Shown: positions 3,905 through 10,369 of the stretch, piece after piece
Position numbering within the stretch: the first letter of the stretch is position 1
Layout: each line of letters starts with the position of its first letter
From: Agrococcus baldri
GTDB taxonomy: Bacteria > Actinomycetota > Actinomycetes > Actinomycetales > Microbacteriaceae
Assembly (NCBI GenBank): GCA_007988785.1
Contig: BJUU01000030.1
Span: forward strand, 1 to 35,743
DNA length: 35,743 nucleotides
Reading direction: 5' to 3'
Made by a program: the position numbers and the translations under genes
Notes under the pieces: model-generated
What the model was told of the DNA's origin: nothing
Databases searched by the model: none
What the model saw: only the letters and a program-made list of their open reading frames with translations

Positions 3905-4534
3905 ATGACGACAATCTCGCCGGTGGAGCGACTCGAATCAACGGCCGTGTGGATTCGAGGGTTCGCGGTTGGATGGGCAGTTCTGGCGTTGTGTACGTAT
4001 CTGTCGGGTGCCACGGTCGGTGTCACGGACATCCCGTTGCATGAAACTCGACCGATCTGGGTCAGCGCCAGCGCTCTCGGTCTCTTCTTTCTTGTTCTTC
4101 TTGCATGGCCATTCCGCCCGGATGTTAGAAGCAGACTGCCGCGAATCCTTTCAGTGCTGCGTTGGCAGGTCGCGACCGGCGTGCTTATAGCGTTCTCGCT
4201 AGGTGCGACCGTACGCGTCGAACTCAAGATGTCTGTCTGGCTAATCGGTACATATCTAGCCGTTCACGCGATCTTCTTCATGTTGCTCGCGCTCGTCGAC
4301 CTGGCGCTTCGCCGGCTATACCACGAGAACGACGCCAGACGGGAGTACGAGCGTCACGTTAAGCTGATGCAAGAGATCGCCACTTTGACGGCATTGATTC
4401 GTGAACGAGGAGACGCGGAGCAGGTCAAACAAGGTCAGTCGCACAACAGTCGAAAGAAACGTCCGATACACACAGTGTGTCGCACGGTACTTCACCTGAG
4501 AGTCCGTAGACAGGGGCAGGGGTTGGCGGGGTGA
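3905..4534 (+). CDS. Hypothetical membrane protein with four helices and a charged C-terminal helix
   Basis: No family is recognised. The 209-residue product has four likely membrane helices at about 20-39, 51-69, 87-104 and 111-133. A strongly charged, probably coiled helix follows from about 139 to 173 (ENDARREYERHVKLMQEIAT is its core), then a basic tail rich in Arg and Lys. Base composition is visibly less GC-rich than the housekeeping genes on either side and codon use is less biased, which suggests recent acquisition. It stands between the decayed junction at 3340 and the giant ATPase, in the same orientation, separated from the latter by about 200 bp with a hairpin. It may be a cargo gene of the island; a link to the ATPase is only positional. 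Confidence 0.65.
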   Translation: MTTISPVERLESTAVWIRGFAVGWAVLALCTYLSGATVGVTDIPLHETRPIWVSASALGLFFLVLLAWPFRPDVRSRLPRILSVLRWQVATGVLIAFSLGATVRVELKMSVWLIGTYLAVHAIFFMLLALVDLALRRLYHENDARREYERHVKLMQEIATLTALIRERGDAEQVKQGQSHNSRKKRPIHTVCRTVLHLRVRRQGQGLAG

Positions 4535-4745: not shown

Positions 4746-4904
4746 ATGGCCGAGCTCGGCGCGAAGAGACGAAGTTGCGCGACGCTCGCGTGTCACAAAT
4801 GGAGAGACGCACCCGCGCGAAGCGAGGCCAGCCATCCGCCCCTGCGCATAGCAATGGTCACCGGCCATTGGTGCCAACGCGCTCTGTTCAGGGAGGAGAG
4901 GTGA
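4746..4904 (+). CDS. Possible 52-residue leader peptide coupled to the STAND ATPase
   Basis: A short frame begins at an ATG placed for leaderless translation behind TATCCT and ends with TGA at 4902-4904. That stop overlaps the proposed GTG start of the giant ATPase (GTG 4901-4903) as GTGA. Its last codons contain the GGAGGAG ribosome binding site of the ATPase, so its translation would bring ribosomes to that start. The product starts MAELGAKRRSCATLACHKWR, is basic, and contains three cysteines; it matches no family I know. A 53-codon open frame can arise by chance in GC-rich DNA, so this is a proposal only. Confidence 0.35.
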   Translation: MAELGAKRRSCATLACHKWRDAPARSEASHPPLRIAMVTGHWCQRALFREER

Positions 4905-7900
4905 GCCCGCCCCGCCCTGGAGGCGAAGCGGACAAAGTCGGCAATCGGTTCGAGCTCGCATGGGCGGCCTGGCACTTATTGCAGCTCGATGCGACCGCTG
5001 GCACTTCGATACGGTTCGAGGATCCCGACCCGAATCTGTCGATTGGTTCAGAGTTGACGATCGTTCGACCGGACGGACAGGAGGTCCAGCAACTCAAACT
5101 GCGTTCGCCGTCAGGGACGAGTTGGCGGGTCCGGAGCCTGCAGCGAGCAGGCGTACTGCGCGCGATGCTGCACCACGCTTCGCACGGCAGAATTTTTGTC
5201 TTTGTCTCTCAGACTCCGGCGGCCAGCTTGAAGGTGCTTGCTGAGCGTGCGCGCCAAGCCGAGAATCTGCGAGAGTTCATCGATCACCTGCAGAGCGACG
5301 AATCGCTATCGCAGTTCGATGAGCTTTCCGCCCCTGACATTTGGGGCGGACCTGAGCGGGCGTGGAAAACGCTCCGGCATCTCCGTTTCCAGGTCGTGGA
5401 TGAGCACATCGTTCGAATGTCCAGTGTGCGCATTGCGGAGGTGACGTTTCAAGGCGCCAGCGGGCAGGCGATCGTCGACAGCCTGGTGGGAATCGTTCTT
5501 CGCAGTCTCGGGCGGGTCTTCACCTCGGCCGTCTTGCTCGAAGAGCTCGAGGCCCATGGCATCCGTTCGGTCGACTCGAGCGAACGATCTGGAAGTAAGG
5601 AGCTGGTGGCCGCAGCGACCCACCGTTGGCTGCGGACCGTGCAAAGGTCGATGGTTCTTCCGACAATCGCCCGCACCGAGACCACCGACGTGCTCGGAGC
5701 GTTGCGGGAGCACCCGCTCGTCGTGCTCCACGGGCCAGCAGGCTCGGGCAAGAGCGGCATTCTTGCCGAAGTTGTGGAGGAGCTCCGTCGCACATACCCC
5801 GTCCTCGCCTTCCGCCTCGATCGGGTCACGTCAGCGTCGTCACCTCACGCCATAGGCGCGTCCATCGGCCTAAAGAGATCTCCCGTCATCGAACTCGAAC
5901 GCGCAGCCGAGGGAGGACGGGCCATCCTCGTGATCGATCAGGTTGACGCCGTCAGCATGGTTTCAGGGCGCGTGCCGGAGTCCGTCGACGCCGTTTGGGA
6001 CCTGATTGAAGACGCCCTGTCCAGTGCGAACGTCAAGGTTGTCGTGGCCTGCAGATCGTTCGATCTCCAGAACGATCCGCGGCTCCGAGGGCTACTCGAA
6101 CCAACCGCTCTCGCGCAACCGTCTTTGACGATAGAAGCGGGTCCGCTCTCACCTGGAACGGTTGCCGGGGCACTGGGTGCGATGCAACTCGACGTCAGTT
6201 CACTCTCCGACGCTCAGACAGAGCTTCTCAGTTCACCCCTGCATCTCTCTCTGCTGAAAGGCTCCGGCCCGAGCAACCTCGCCGATCTGGCGGTATCGAG
6301 ACTCGGGCTCTTCGATGCTTTCTGGCGAGCGAAGCAGTTGACGGCGCGCGAACGAATGCCCACGGTTCGATTCGCACAAGCACTCGGCATCGTGGCGGAG
6401 CGCATCAGCGAGCGTAAGTCACTGTCAGTTCCGTTCGATCTGCTGGACGTAGAGGGCTTGGCTGCCGACGTCGAGGTGCTCATCTCGGAGAACGTGCTCG
6501 ATCGCCAAGGCCGCCAGGTAACGTTCTTCCACGAGTCCTTCTTCGACTACGTGTTTGCCAAGGCCTGGATGGCGCGCGATGAGTCGTTGATGGGCTTCCT
6601 CCGCAGTGACGAGCAAGACCTCTTCCGCCGCGCTCAAGTCCGGCAAATCCTTCTGCACCTTGCTCAAGCAGATCCCCGCCGACTCCGGATCGAAGCCCAG
6701 TCTGCGCTGCTTGCTCCGGACGCCCGGTTCCACATCCGAATCGCAGTGATCGGAGCTGTCTCGCAGCATCCTGCACCTGCTCCCCCGGACCTGGCTATGT
6801 TGCTGAACGTGGCCGAGGCTCGTCCAGAACTAGCCGACCGAATTTGGAGCGCGCTCGCCCAACCCAAGTGGATCGAGCTCCTAATAAGGGCTGGGCAGCT
6901 CGCTCGCTGGTTCGACTCTTCTGACAGCGCTGCGGCGCTGAGAGCCGTTGAGGTATCGCGAGGCGCGAACCTCGAGCAACTGAACGAGATCGCGTCGCTA
7001 CTCGATCAACGATTCGATCGCGCCGACAGCCCGACATGGATTCGGGCGGTCGCTCACACGGCTTTGTATGAGGGCTCTCGCGAGATGTTCCAACTTCTCT
7101 TGAGAGGCGTACGTCGGGGTGACTTCGGGCCGCAGGCATCGGTCTTGTGGTTGTTCGCACGTGACCTCAGCGAGGCAGATCCGGGCTGGGCAATTGACCT
7201 ACTCGAGGCCCATTTCGTCCAGCGTTCGGACTCGCTCGCGCTCGACGAGTCTGGGCAGGTCGCGTCGCTTGCCGTGCGCGACCACTACGCTCCCGAGTTG
7301 ATCGAGGCGACGGCCGCAGCTCTCCCCTTGCGCTTCGCGAAGGTAATGGTGCCCTTCGCGCTGGACGTCATGGCGGTGACGCGGAACACTGGCACCGACC
7401 GTCCCCCTCGTGCCCATGCCCACTTCGATCCAGGCCTTCAGCCGGACGAGCATAGAGAGCAAATCGACGACGCGCTGTTCTACGCGCTTGGCGTTAGCCT
7501 CAACGAGGCCGCGCGGACAGAACCTGATGCGATCGAGCGCGAGCTGCGGTCATTGTCCGAGTCGCCTTTCGGAGGAGCTCAGTTCCTTCTCTTCGGAGCG
7601 CTCGCCGCGGCCGGAGCACGCTTCGCTCGGTGGGCCATCGACATCCTAGTCTCCGAGACCAACTTCGCGCACGGCTACCGAAACGATCCGACCAGCGCAA
7701 CGCGAGAGCTGCTGGCCGCGATCAGCTCCCACGCGACTGCCGACGAGCATCTTCGGCTCGAGCTACGGATGATCAGCACTCGACCGCGCTACGAGAGTCG
7801 ACGCGGATCCGGGTACACCGCCTTCACATTGCTCTCAAGTCTGGATGAGAGTCGCCTCTCCCCTTACGGACGGCAGAAGTTGGAGCAGTTCCGCCGTAAG

Positions 7901-9442
7901 TTCGGAATCAGCCGCCCGGATCCGCCGCCCGGACTCCTATCCGGCTGGGTCACGTCACCGATCGTGCCCGATCGCGCGGCGCGCATGTCGGACGAAAACT
8001 GGATCCGAGCGATGCAGAAGCACGATGGTTCGCGGAGCAGTAGCGGCTTCTTGGTGGGCGGCGCCCACGAGCTCGCGCAGGTGCTCAGGAGCGCGGCCGA
8101 GGAGGACCCGGGTCGCTTTGCCCGTCTCTCGCAGAAGATGGACGCTCGGCTCAACAGCAGCTACTTCGATGCACTGCTCTACGCCTTCGGCGGCAGCGAA
8201 TCCGTCAACGATCACGAGGAGGCTGTGTTCGGTGCGATTCGGCATCTCGCGGAGATCGGTGGTCCCTCGGTCGATCGCTCACTCTCGTCCTCGGTCCAAC
8301 GCATACGCGCACGACTGCCCCTGGACCTGGTCGAGCTATTGTTAAGTCGAGCTCTTCAGTCTGCGCCGGTCGACGACACGAAGCCACCGATGACGCCCCA
8401 GGACTCCGACGGGCTCGACCCGGAGTATCTCCTCAGCAATGGCTTGAACACAGCTCGAGGCGGATTGATCTTAGCGGTGACAGATCTACTCATCTTCGAT
8501 GCTGACGGATCGCGCACAGATCTGGTCACGCCGCACCTTCAGTGGTTCGTCAGTGACGAATCCGTCATCATTCGGTCCTGCGTCGCATGGCTCCTTGCCG
8601 CGTGTTTGCGCCACGACAAGGCTGCAGCGCACGCCGCTTTCGTCGAGCTGGCCGAAGGCGACTTACGAGCCTTGGCGACCAGAGAAGGAAGGCGTCTTCT
8701 GATCTACGTGGGCAACGCTCGTTCGGATCTGGTCCTCCCGGTCGTCGATCGCATGATGAATGGCGACGACTCGGCCGTACGAGCAGCCGGTGGTCAGATG
8801 GCCGCACATGCGGCGTTGCTTTGGGATGAGCGCGGCCGTCTGAACGCTGCGCTGGACGGTTCGGCAGATCTGCGGCAGGGGTTGGCCGAGGCCTGTATCG
8901 CTGCTCTTGACGACGAGGCGCCAGACCAGCGAATCGTGGAGGCGCTGCTCCAGCTCATGCACGACCCGGACGAGCAGGTGCAGGAAACGATCGCTCAGCT
9001 GCCGTACGCGCTCTCGAGCATCGATGGTCCGCGCCGCAGCAATCTACTCAAGGCATACATCGCTTCGCCATGCTTTGTTCGAGCTCCCTCTGCGCTCTTG
9101 CATCTGCTCGACGGCGCAACCGGCGACATCGGCGAACTGGTGCTGCGCGCATCGGAACGTCTCCTCGGCCTCGCTCGCGACCAGATGGGCGATCTGAGAA
9201 CGGAAGCTGCCGGAGATGCGTGGTTGCTAAGCGAACTGCTGGTGAAGGCGCTGCCTCAAGCCGATGAGCCGAGGACTCGCGCCGGACTCCTCGACGCGCT
9301 GGACGACCTTCTGGAGTTGAACGCCTTCGGCGTGGAGGGGACGGTTCAAGATGCCGAACGAGGGATGGGTGGCGACGTCCCCAGAGCCCGCGCGAAGCGC
9401 CGAGGGTCGCGCCGACAACGCGCCCGCAGGCGCCGGCGCTAG
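4901..9442 (+). CDS. Giant STAND-type NTPase with N-terminal PD-(D/E)xK-like nuclease domain and helical-repeat sensor; candidate antiphage protein
   Basis: 1513 residues from the GTG at 4901, chosen for its GGAGGAG site and because it gives the family-like opening SPPRPGGEADKVGNRFE; a longer frame back to 4739 adds a low-quality Arg-rich extension. Residues 7-115 resemble the Cap4/DUF4297 nuclease fold: E18, E51 and the Q64-L-K66 motif are candidate catalytic residues. The ATPase part has Walker A GPAGSGKS (K284), Walker B ILVIDQVD (D346) and an arginine-bearing ACRSFDLQNDPRL segment. A winged-helix-like FFHESFFDYVFAKAW follows. The remaining 900 or so residues are Ala/Leu-rich paired helices like HEAT repeats, the expected ligand-sensing part. 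By analogy with Avs proteins, binding of a phage component would oligomerise the ATPase and activate the nuclease; that function is inferred. The last about 27 residues are a basic, low-complexity tail after a natural-looking end at TVQDAER. Confidence 0.8.
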   Translation: MSPPRPGGEADKVGNRFELAWAAWHLLQLDATAGTSIRFEDPDPNLSIGSELTIVRPDGQEVQQLKLRSPSGTSWRVRSLQRAGVLRAMLHHASHGRIFVFVSQTPAASLKVLAERARQAENLREFIDHLQSDESLSQFDELSAPDIWGGPERAWKTLRHLRFQVVDEHIVRMSSVRIAEVTFQGASGQAIVDSLVGIVLRSLGRVFTSAVLLEELEAHGIRSVDSSERSGSKELVAAATHRWLRTVQRSMVLPTIARTETTDVLGALREHPLVVLHGPAGSGKSGILAEVVEELRRTYPVLAFRLDRVTSASSPHAIGASIGLKRSPVIELERAAEGGRAILVIDQVDAVSMVSGRVPESVDAVWDLIEDALSSANVKVVVACRSFDLQNDPRLRGLLEPTALAQPSLTIEAGPLSPGTVAGALGAMQLDVSSLSDAQTELLSSPLHLSLLKGSGPSNLADLAVSRLGLFDAFWRAKQLTARERMPTVRFAQALGIVAERISERKSLSVPFDLLDVEGLAADVEVLISENVLDRQGRQVTFFHESFFDYVFAKAWMARDESLMGFLRSDEQDLFRRAQVRQILLHLAQADPRRLRIEAQSALLAPDARFHIRIAVIGAVSQHPAPAPPDLAMLLNVAEARPELADRIWSALAQPKWIELLIRAGQLARWFDSSDSAAALRAVEVSRGANLEQLNEIASLLDQRFDRADSPTWIRAVAHTALYEGSREMFQLLLRGVRRGDFGPQASVLWLFARDLSEADPGWAIDLLEAHFVQRSDSLALDESGQVASLAVRDHYAPELIEATAAALPLRFAKVMVPFALDVMAVTRNTGTDRPPRAHAHFDPGLQPDEHREQIDDALFYALGVSLNEAARTEPDAIERELRSLSESPFGGAQFLLFGALAAAGARFARWAIDILVSETNFAHGYRNDPTSATRELLAAISSHATADEHLRLELRMISTRPRYESRRGSGYTAFTLLSSLDESRLSPYGRQKLEQFRRKFGISRPDPPPGLLSGWVTSPIVPDRAARMSDENWIRAMQKHDGSRSSSGFLVGGAHELAQVLRSAAEEDPGRFARLSQKMDARLNSSYFDALLYAFGGSESVNDHEEAVFGAIRHLAEIGGPSVDRSLSSSVQRIRARLPLDLVELLLSRALQSAPVDDTKPPMTPQDSDGLDPEYLLSNGLNTARGGLILAVTDLLIFDADGSRTDLVTPHLQWFVSDESVIIRSCVAWLLAACLRHDKAAAHAAFVELAEGDLRALATREGRRLLIYVGNARSDLVLPVVDRMMNGDDSAVRAAGGQMAAHAALLWDERGRLNAALDGSADLRQGLAEACIAALDDEAPDQRIVEALLQLMHDPDEQVQETIAQLPYALSSIDGPRRSNLLKAYIASPCFVRAPSALLHLLDGATGDIGELVLRASERLLGLARDQMGDLRTEAAGDAWLLSELLVKALPQADEPRTRAGLLDALDDLLELNAFGVEGTVQDAERGMGGDVPRARAKRRGSRRQRARRRRR

Positions 9443-9604
9443 CTTCGGGGATCGGAGGATCGCAGGCGGGGTGCCGATTACAGGTTTTGGCGATTGCCCG
9501 AGTTCGGCGGCGACTACCGCGGCAGACTCACGCGACTGCTCGGCCCGACTCCTTCGAAATATTGAGTCGAAGCGTGCATGACCGACGAGAGGAGCCGGGC
9601 TACT
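9443..9604. other. Intergenic stretch after the STAND gene
   Basis: No gene is seen. A weak inverted repeat, CTTCGA and TCGAAG around a 9-nt loop near 9553-9573, is the only structure, and it could be a poor terminator. Composition is still that of the island. Confidence 0.4.
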
Positions 9605-9858
9605 CGTAATGCCGCACTGTGGCCAGGCCGGCTCGATCACCTCGCCAGCGGCGCCGACCACCGCCGCAGGCCCGCCCTCGCCCTCATCGACGACTCAACC
9701 GTCACCGTCATCGACCTCGCTACCGGCAAGATCATCGCCACCAACGACATCGACCCCGACCGCGGTTCCTGGCGCAATACGCGAAGGCCCCCTGCCGATG
9801 GCCGGGGGCTGAGTGACGCATGTCGCGACTCATCTGAGACATATGACGCGACTCAACC
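9605..9858 (+). pseudogene. IS481-family transposase remnant 1 (C-terminal end, degraded)
   Basis: The plus frame reads GRLDHLASGADHRRRPALAL, then IDDSTVTVIDLATGKIIATN and DIDPDRGSWRN. This aligns residue for residue with the C-terminal beta-strand region of IS481-type transposases and with the second remnant at 9939-10271 (GRMHHLGIGIDHARTPVLIL, TGEVLSTHTVDPTRTYWRN). The final PCRWPGA matches GRWPGLL only after a frame change near 9780. The catalytic DDE core is absent. The remnant ends against a short copy of the tRNA-Ala 3' end, just as the second remnant does. Confidence 0.7.
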
Positions 9859-9861
9859 CAT

Positions 9862-9876
9862 TGGTGGATCTGGGGG
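9862..9876. repeat. 15-bp duplicate of the tRNA-Ala 3' end (att-like direct repeat)
   Basis: TGGTGGATCTGGGGG here is identical to 10294-10308, the last bases of the tRNA-Ala gene including CCA, in the same orientation. The copies are 432 bp apart and enclose the second IS481 remnant. Duplicated tRNA 3' ends are classic integrase footprints, though no integrase gene is present. Confidence 0.7.
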
Positions 9877-9883
9877 TGTGCTG

Positions 9884-10290
9884 GTTCACGACATCGTTCA
9901 CATATGAGTCGGGACATCGTTCACATCCACGATGAGGCGTGTCGAAGCCGCGCGTCATCGTCCTGCCCGTTGTCCGCCGCGACCAGCACGACTGGCGCAT
10001 CCGTCACGACCGCGTCGATCGCTTGGGCAAGCTCGCCCTCCGCCGCGCCGGCCGCATGCACCACCTCGGCATCGGCATCGACCACGCCCGCACCCCGGTC
10101 CTGATCCTCACCGACGACACCAGCGTCACCGTCTCCGACCACACCACCGGCGAGGTCCTCTCCACCCACACCGTCGATCCCACACGCACCTACTGGCGCA
10201 ACAACGACAGAAGCCCCGGCCGATGGCCAGGGCTTCTCCCCGATGTGAACGATGACGCGGAACATCTATGAACGATGTCCCGCGTCATCA
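9884..10290 (+). mobile_element. IS481-family element 2, internally deleted
   Basis: The left end shows the 13-mer ACATCGTTCACAT twice (9891-9903 and 9914-9926, period 23). Its inner copy, as GTCGGGACATCGTTCACA, is inverted relative to TGAACGATGTCCCGCGTCA at 10269-10287 on the right. Between them only the transposase C-terminus remains, so most of the coding region has been deleted. The copy abuts the tRNA-Ala gene on the right and the 15-bp tRNA fragment on the left. Exact element ends cannot be fixed without an intact relative. Confidence 0.6.
9939..10271 (+). pseudogene. IS481-family transposase C-terminal fragment
   Basis: The frame reads KPRVIVLPVVRRDQHDWRIR, HDRVDRLGKLALRRAGRMHH, LGIGIDHARTPVLILTDDTS and on to RSPGRWPGLLPDVND before a TGA at 10269-10271. 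This is the conserved C-terminal tail of IS481 transposases. The zinc/HTH part and the DDE catalytic domain are missing. A short frame ATG AGT CGG at 9904 enters from the element's left end in another phase, so the deletion junction lies near 9930-9945. Confidence 0.8.
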
Positions 10291-10293
10291 CAA

Positions 10294-10369
10294 TGGTGGA
10301 TCTGGGGGGACTCGAACCCCCGACCCCCTGCATGCCATGCAGGTGCGCTACCAGCTGCGCCACAGACCC
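10294..10369 (-). tRNA. tRNA-Ala, anticodon GGC
   Basis: A complete 76-nt cloverleaf is visible on the minus strand with the CCA end encoded. The acceptor stem is GGGTCTG/CAGATCC and includes the G3-U70 pair that identifies alanine tRNAs. The D arm is GCGC-AGCTGGTA-GCGC; the anticodon stem CCTGC/GCAGG closes loop ATGGCAT, giving anticodon GGC; the T arm GGGGG-TTCGAGT-CCCCC is standard. Its 3' end is copied at 9862-9876 and is flanked by IS481 debris. Confidence 0.97.

Follow-up and report, generated by a model that had tools for sequence, protein, structure and literature searches.

A candidate single-gene NLR-like defence receptor of Agrococcus baldri with a Cap4-type nuclease fold and relatives in several bacterial phyla

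Introduction

The nuclease of the Cap4, LmuA, Hachiman and HerA-DUF4297 systems is joined to or partnered with a SAVED domain, an SMC-like protein, a helicase or HerA, respectively, and animal NLRs (NLRP9, NLRP3, NLRC4) as well as bacterial bNACHT proteins carry leucine-rich repeats. Avs1-5 proteins unite an effector, a STAND ATPase and a helical sensor in one chain. According to PMC12931631, Avs1-4 carry nucleases and Avs5 combines a Sir2 effector with nSTAND3; a summary of how Avs proteins sense and assemble is given in PMC12724215. Here we describe a gene (positions 4901-9442, plus strand) within a 35,743-nucleotide stretch of the Agrococcus baldri assembly GCA_007988785.1 (contig BJUU01000030.1; the whole stretch is called the window below), which we interpret, with a probability of roughly 0.78, as a single-gene, NLR-like defence receptor acting as an invader-triggered DNA nuclease. 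Its product follows the effector-STAND-helical order of Avs1-5 in a single chain, but differs from Avs5, as portrayed in PMC12931631, in having a nuclease fold and nSTAND1 instead of Sir2 and nSTAND3. With Cap4, LmuA, Hachiman and HerA-DUF4297 it has the effector fold in common (Foldseek, VIA), whereas its regulator is a STAND switch in the same chain, followed by a helical solenoid of another kind than leucine-rich repeats. The gene represents a genuine and apparently little described branch of a known kind of receptor and not a new category.

The interest of the gene lies in the reach of the family and in the NLR-like switch. It extends the bacterial NLR/Avs repertoire by a widespread branch. 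The switch is structurally near animal NACHT modules, the effector fold is common to Cap4, Lamassu, Hachiman and Avs3, and the presumed helical sensor offers a new way into the question of which phage features bacteria recognise, above all in actinobacteria (Streptomyces, for example). Being a single gene for which no partner was found, it should be easily tested.

Domain architecture and conservation

The gene is a single frame of 1513 codons with no internal stop, present in one copy in the genome, and its product has a three-part architecture, divided as follows (all on the plus strand):

4901-9442, plus strand: whole gene, nuclease - STAND ATPase - helical solenoid, 1513 amino acids (sequence, relatives)
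4901-5290, plus strand: PD-(D/E)xK core, residues 1-130 (helices 9-27 and 77-94, strands 36-39, 52-56, 59-66 and 98-103), with the opening GGEADKVGNRFE, E18, E40, E51 and Q64-x-K66 (predicted model, Foldseek, VIA, conservation)
5291-5650, plus strand: rest of the Cap4-like domain, helical, plus linker, residues 131-250 (predicted model)
5663-6160, plus strand: nucleotide-binding domain, residues 255-420, with Walker A G278-x-A-G-x-G-K284-S, Walker B L-V-I-D346-Q-V-D349 and a conserved C-R385-x-F-D388-x-x-N-D392 (Pfam, conservation)
6161-6862, plus strand: remaining NACHT/NLR-like helical and winged-helix part, residues 421-654, including FFHESFFDY at 542-550 (NLR structure matches)
6863-9361, plus strand: presumed sensor, an alpha-solenoid whose C-terminal half is HEAT/ARM-like, residues 655-1487 (predicted model, up to residue 1430)
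9362-9439, plus strand: arginine-rich tail, residues 1488-1513, nearly absent from relatives (occupancy 0.02 for residues 1501-1513 in 66 sequences)

Relatives were collected from a species-level genome collection with a seven-sequence profile including the window protein, which yielded 342 pattern matches, 309 of them encoding a relative; the seven-sequence alignment was needed, as a single-protein search of genome contigs gave 29 pattern matches and none that encodes a relative. The best 80 of the 309, by similarity to the window protein, were analysed, and this ranking therefore favours copies with the same N-terminus. The resulting alignment comprises 66 proteins (the window protein and 65 of the 80 relatives), 15 having been excluded beforehand as partial, with a stop in the matched span or without a clean start (L020, L028, L030, L037, L040, L043, L051, L052, L066, L068, L069, L072, L077, L080 and L087). 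Because these 65 relatives are 28-45% identical to the window copy over residues 1-130 and 32-46% over the STAND part, the conservation observed among them is not due to chance.

The predicted N-terminal model has the alpha-beta-beta-beta-alpha-beta core of the Cap4/DUF4297 branch of PD-(D/E)xK nucleases (Foldseek, VIA), the very branch guessed for the N-terminus in a preliminary description of this DNA made without database searches. Residues E18, E51 and K66 are conserved in all 66 aligned proteins and Q64 in 65 of them; judging by their position in the model and by general knowledge of such enzymes, E18, E51, Q64 and K66 are presumed to be catalytic. The Cap4_nuclease model is matched by 7/55 family members at E<=0.1, and two LmuA models by 5/55 and 2/55 members at the same threshold. 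The segment that follows (residues 131-250) shows the lowest mean identity to relatives, 0.25, among six parts compared.

The predicted core model contains a NACHT module fold, and the domain order of STAND/NACHT proteins as well as Walker A and B are present. Pfam nSTAND1 scores 28.0 bits (above its cutoff of 27.1), nSTAND3 reaches an E-value of only 0.28, and Pfam NACHT, at 15.5 bits, stays under its 26.7 cutoff. Invariant in all 66 sequences are K284, D346, D349, R385, D388, D392 and H544. Structure comparison matched NLRP9, NLRP3 and NLRC4 over model residues 1 to 409-448 (protein residues 245 to 653-692), and among the matches listed for this predicted model, NLR NACHT modules are the nearest structural counterparts of the ATPase. 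The term "bacterial-NLR-like" is therefore at least as apt as the "Avs-like" label of the preliminary description, of which the effector-STAND-helical order stands and the label needs correction.

The early estimate of about 900 residues of paired helices agrees with the predicted model of residues 245-1430, which has a mean pLDDT of 88.5. The C-terminal half of the solenoid matches PP2A and importin-alpha in structure comparison, and Pfam HEAT_2 is found at 1320-1390 as a weak match below cutoff.

Distribution and genomic setting

Carriage of the family is patchy. Within the genus, the only homologue among 24 genomes is the window's own, which bears out the expectation that the gene is not a housekeeping one; among 60 related genomes two carry a homologue, namely its own and one of the same order (36% identity, residues 2-1487), and the phylum-level and cyanobacterial samples give 4/198 (own genome counted) and 4/146 (centre genome counted), respectively. 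By record title, 55 of the best 80 loci are actinobacterial, and among the remaining 25 are cyanobacteria, Planctomycetes, Chloroflexi, Armatimonadetes, Nitrospinota, Acidobacteria and Proteobacteria (phyla assigned partly from general knowledge). The family does occur in many actinobacteria, as stated in the preliminary description, and is not confined to them.

The gene lies in a segment (approximately 4.0 to 10.5 kb of the window) with a guanine-plus-cytosine content of 0.57-0.67, as compared with 0.66-0.75 in the flanks (500-base steps), which ends at a transfer RNA (tRNA) gene. Two features mark this end:

10294-10369, minus strand: tRNA-Ala (ggc), which turns its 3' end towards the gene and bounds the variable segment on the right (sequence; flanks at other spacings in sister genomes)
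9863-9876, plus strand: 14 bases that repeat the 3' end of tRNA-Ala, possible attachment-site relic (direct repeat D3)

The setting beside this tRNA is variable: in the window, 7.5 kb lie between tRNA-Ala and the conserved left flank, which reaches to about 2751, and the same flanks are separated by about 6.5 kb (G004), 25 kb (G012) and 41 kb (G008) in sister genomes. The stretch in G012 encodes type I restriction, specificity and methyltransferase proteins together with a 980-residue protein matching the ThsA model (E 8.4e-10), which we take to be a SIR2 protein.

Neighbours of the relatives were sampled at random (118 of 216 close and 118 of 248 distant ones). Different PADLOC models matched at E<=1e-15 number 158 for close neighbours vs. 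45 for distant ones, and different system names, among 25 listed each, 10 vs. 5. Since PADLOC models overlap, this contrast is a tendency and not a measured enrichment, and it is to that extent that homologues are found, as had been anticipated, in defence settings. No neighbour cluster spans more than 7 of the 80 loci (crude gene calls, several loci cut short), the small clusters at offset +1 covering 3 and 4 loci, and a conserved partner gene was accordingly dropped from consideration.

Proposed function

By precedent of Avs and NLR proteins, the solenoid would bind a ligand, the protein would oligomerise and cleave DNA, and the host would be protected from phages. At rest, the C-terminal solenoid would keep the STAND switch in its closed state. 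An invader signal, most probably a conserved protein of phages, would open the switch on binding, and ATP binding would then drive assembly into an oligomer. Such an oligomer would cluster the N-terminal Cap4-type nuclease domains, which would then cleave double-stranded DNA and end the infection, with the loss of the cell as the probable price.

Several points weigh against this interpretation. The case for a receptor role is computational throughout. The N-terminus of the window protein matches no Pfam or PADLOC model at E<=0.1, Cap4_nuclease is missed by 48/55 family members at that threshold, and the core model reaches a pTM of only 0.57. The odd basic tail of the window copy, together with its long branch (0.914) in the STAND-domain tree, leaves room for an altered function. 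The neighbour contrast is modest, coming from one random sample with crude gene calls and overlapping models, and far genes match defence models too; furthermore, the two open reading frames (ORFs) of the G004 insert that were tested have no PADLOC match at E<=1e-8. Finally, 50,697 phage records contain no relative of the window protein, and neither do viral contigs in a single-protein or an alignment scan; these searches thus point to neither a trigger nor a viral carrier.

The same switch and nuclease could instead be directed at non-phage invaders such as plasmids or transfer agents, or could respond to a host-damage signal. We regard a non-phage trigger as unlikely, albeit with no direct counterpoint: no result of the analysis identifies the trigger, a CARD-NLR-like system controlling gene transfer agents has been published (PMC13236601), and relatives occur on plasmids. 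Ten plasmid records were found, four matching from residue 7 on (three at approximately 33% identity over half of the query and one at 26% over 78%) and six only from residue 200 or later. One plasmid relative, from Herpetosiphon (L006 7209-11786), has a different N-terminal opening, GGPTTQSGVFYQ, and adjoins an integrase gene, a helicase-like gene and a DUF262 gene.

Relationship to described systems

Could the gene instead be a divergent member of a described Avs class, such as Avs3, whose nuclease fold is the nearest, and detect terminase or portal as Avs1-4 do? The comparisons make this quite unlikely. Among PADLOC Avs models only Avs2 is matched, weakly (E 0.0022 over residues 268-346), with no Avs3 or Avs4 match under filters that drop most matches above E 0.1, and the Avs3 chain (8dgc; AVAST type 3) has 2028 residues vs. 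1513 here. For an annotated Avs2 from Rhodothermus, the alignment (probability 73%) is confined to 252 STAND columns and does not extend to the N-terminal effector. Avs2 and Avs4 (9o4e, 8dgf) thus have STAND similarity in common with the window family, Avs4 also the overall core order, but sequence similarity beyond the ATPase was not found in the comparisons made; the Avs4 structural match to the core model has a root-mean-square deviation of 15.3 and scores below the NLR NACHT modules. The best PADLOC match of the whole protein is PDC-M54A (E 1e-9, residues 256-575), the likeness being confined to the STAND part and PDC-M54A itself being an unverified candidate. An NCBIfam scan of the window protein gave no meaningful match.

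Far closer is a 1523-residue "AAA family ATPase" of the PDB (9n00 / 9n01 / 9yix), matched by the single protein at E 2.4e-11 and by the core profile at E 1.7e-51 in two stretches, the best of which covers the STAND part, as against 0.22 for Avs4. Homology to the 9n00 family extends over STAND and solenoid (in the latter as weak colinear pieces), and the N-terminal profile match is weak (E 0.13, a QxK-like stretch). A 9n00-like protein of the cyanobacterial sample, L120, aligns to the core profile over 771 columns (probability 99.8%, 20% identity), and its N-terminus reaches a probability of 38.6% against the N-terminal profile; it opens with RGDNYQ, whereas the window family opens with GGxxDKxGNRYE. 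The codes 9N00 and 9N01 are not named in the literature searched, and 9n00 is absent among the structure matches listed for the N-terminal and core models (structure library to April 2026). Neither did the literature search, whose coverage left most subscription journals outside, return a paper describing the GGxxDKxGNRYE family. The "possibly separate clade" of the preliminary description is thus favoured, though unproven.

On a Tolypothrix plasmid, a protein with a caspase family annotation matches 9n00 from its residue 301 onward (E 3.7e-194), and the effector has therefore been exchanged within the superfamily. In the STAND-domain tree, rooted on one Avs2 (Rhodothermus), the window copy forms a long single branch within a 45-member clade (support 0.979), and L120 and the caspase-headed relative form an outer branch outside it. 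We put forward, as a tentative proposal to which we give somewhat less than even odds, that GGxxDKxGNRYE proteins, with 9n00 as a distant cousin, may constitute an undescribed class of bacterial NLR-like receptors (Cap4-type nuclease, NACHT-like switch, HEAT/ARM-like sensor) spanning Actinomycetota, Cyanobacteria, Planctomycetota, Chloroflexota and others, that a wider superfamily may combine a related core with interchangeable effectors (nuclease or caspase), and that the class may recognise invader patterns unused by Avs1-5.

Integrity of the window copy

The window copy might be an inactive or decaying leftover among degraded mobile elements, in keeping with the repeat fragments just downstream of the gene, its long branch, its unusual basic C-terminal tail and its being the sole copy among the 24 genus genomes; the intact, stop-free frame of 1513 codons and the retention of the presumed catalytic and nucleotide-binding residues make this very improbable. 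A STAND regulator with a vestigial nuclease-like domain, serving signalling or transcription and not defence, is hardly credible given the presumed active-site residues kept in 66/66 proteins, the sporadic carriage among genomes and a Pfam scan of the window protein that shows no DNA-binding output domain.

Additional features

The translation contains all the residues and motifs listed in the preliminary description (E18, E51, Q64-L-K66, K284, D346, FDLQNDPRL, FFHESFFDY), and its start at 4901 is probably right as well. The mechanical ORF begins farther 5', at TTG 4739; this start was dropped, as relatives begin at the position equal to 4901. The GTG at 4901 is probably the true start, because relatives open there, at M/V-(S)-P-R-P-GGxxDK, and purine-rich AGGGAGGAG lies directly 5' of it:

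4890-4900, plus strand: probable ribosome-binding site, a purine-rich stretch AGGGAGGAGAG preceding GTG 4901 (sequence; start agrees with relatives)

At the other end of the gene, the arginine-rich tail (9362-9439) may be read-through into former intergenic sequence. Just upstream of the gene, a 209-residue ORF (3905-4534, partly of low guanine-plus-cytosine content) has several hydrophobic stretches by eye and zero matches in Pfam and PADLOC scans.

Among the relatives, the caspase-headed gene of the 9n00 branch (L007 4900-10029, Tolypothrix plasmid) has a trypsin-like peptidase gene before it and another caspase family gene after it. An effector swap considered for a same-class relative, L009, was dropped, the upstream frame being without a nuclease motif by eye and containing stops further up. 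A Phycisphaerae genome with two family members (L113, L116) also has a more distant STAND paralogue, L117. In the neighbourhood of the Sinorhizobium relative are multiubiquitin, ThiF and DUF6527 genes, with an integrase gene in between; we take these three genes to be part of a ubiquitin-like defence system. At the tRNA-Ala site of the sister species, the ThsA-model protein (L106 4714-7656) stands beside the type I restriction-modification set (L106, L107). Adjoining tRNA-Ala in the window, positions 9590-10245 hold two diverged copies (9626-9777 and 10050-10201; 72% over 152 bases) that resemble C-terminal fragments of a transposase, presumably IS481-like, and positions 9874-10323 recur at 97% on contig C3 of the same genome.
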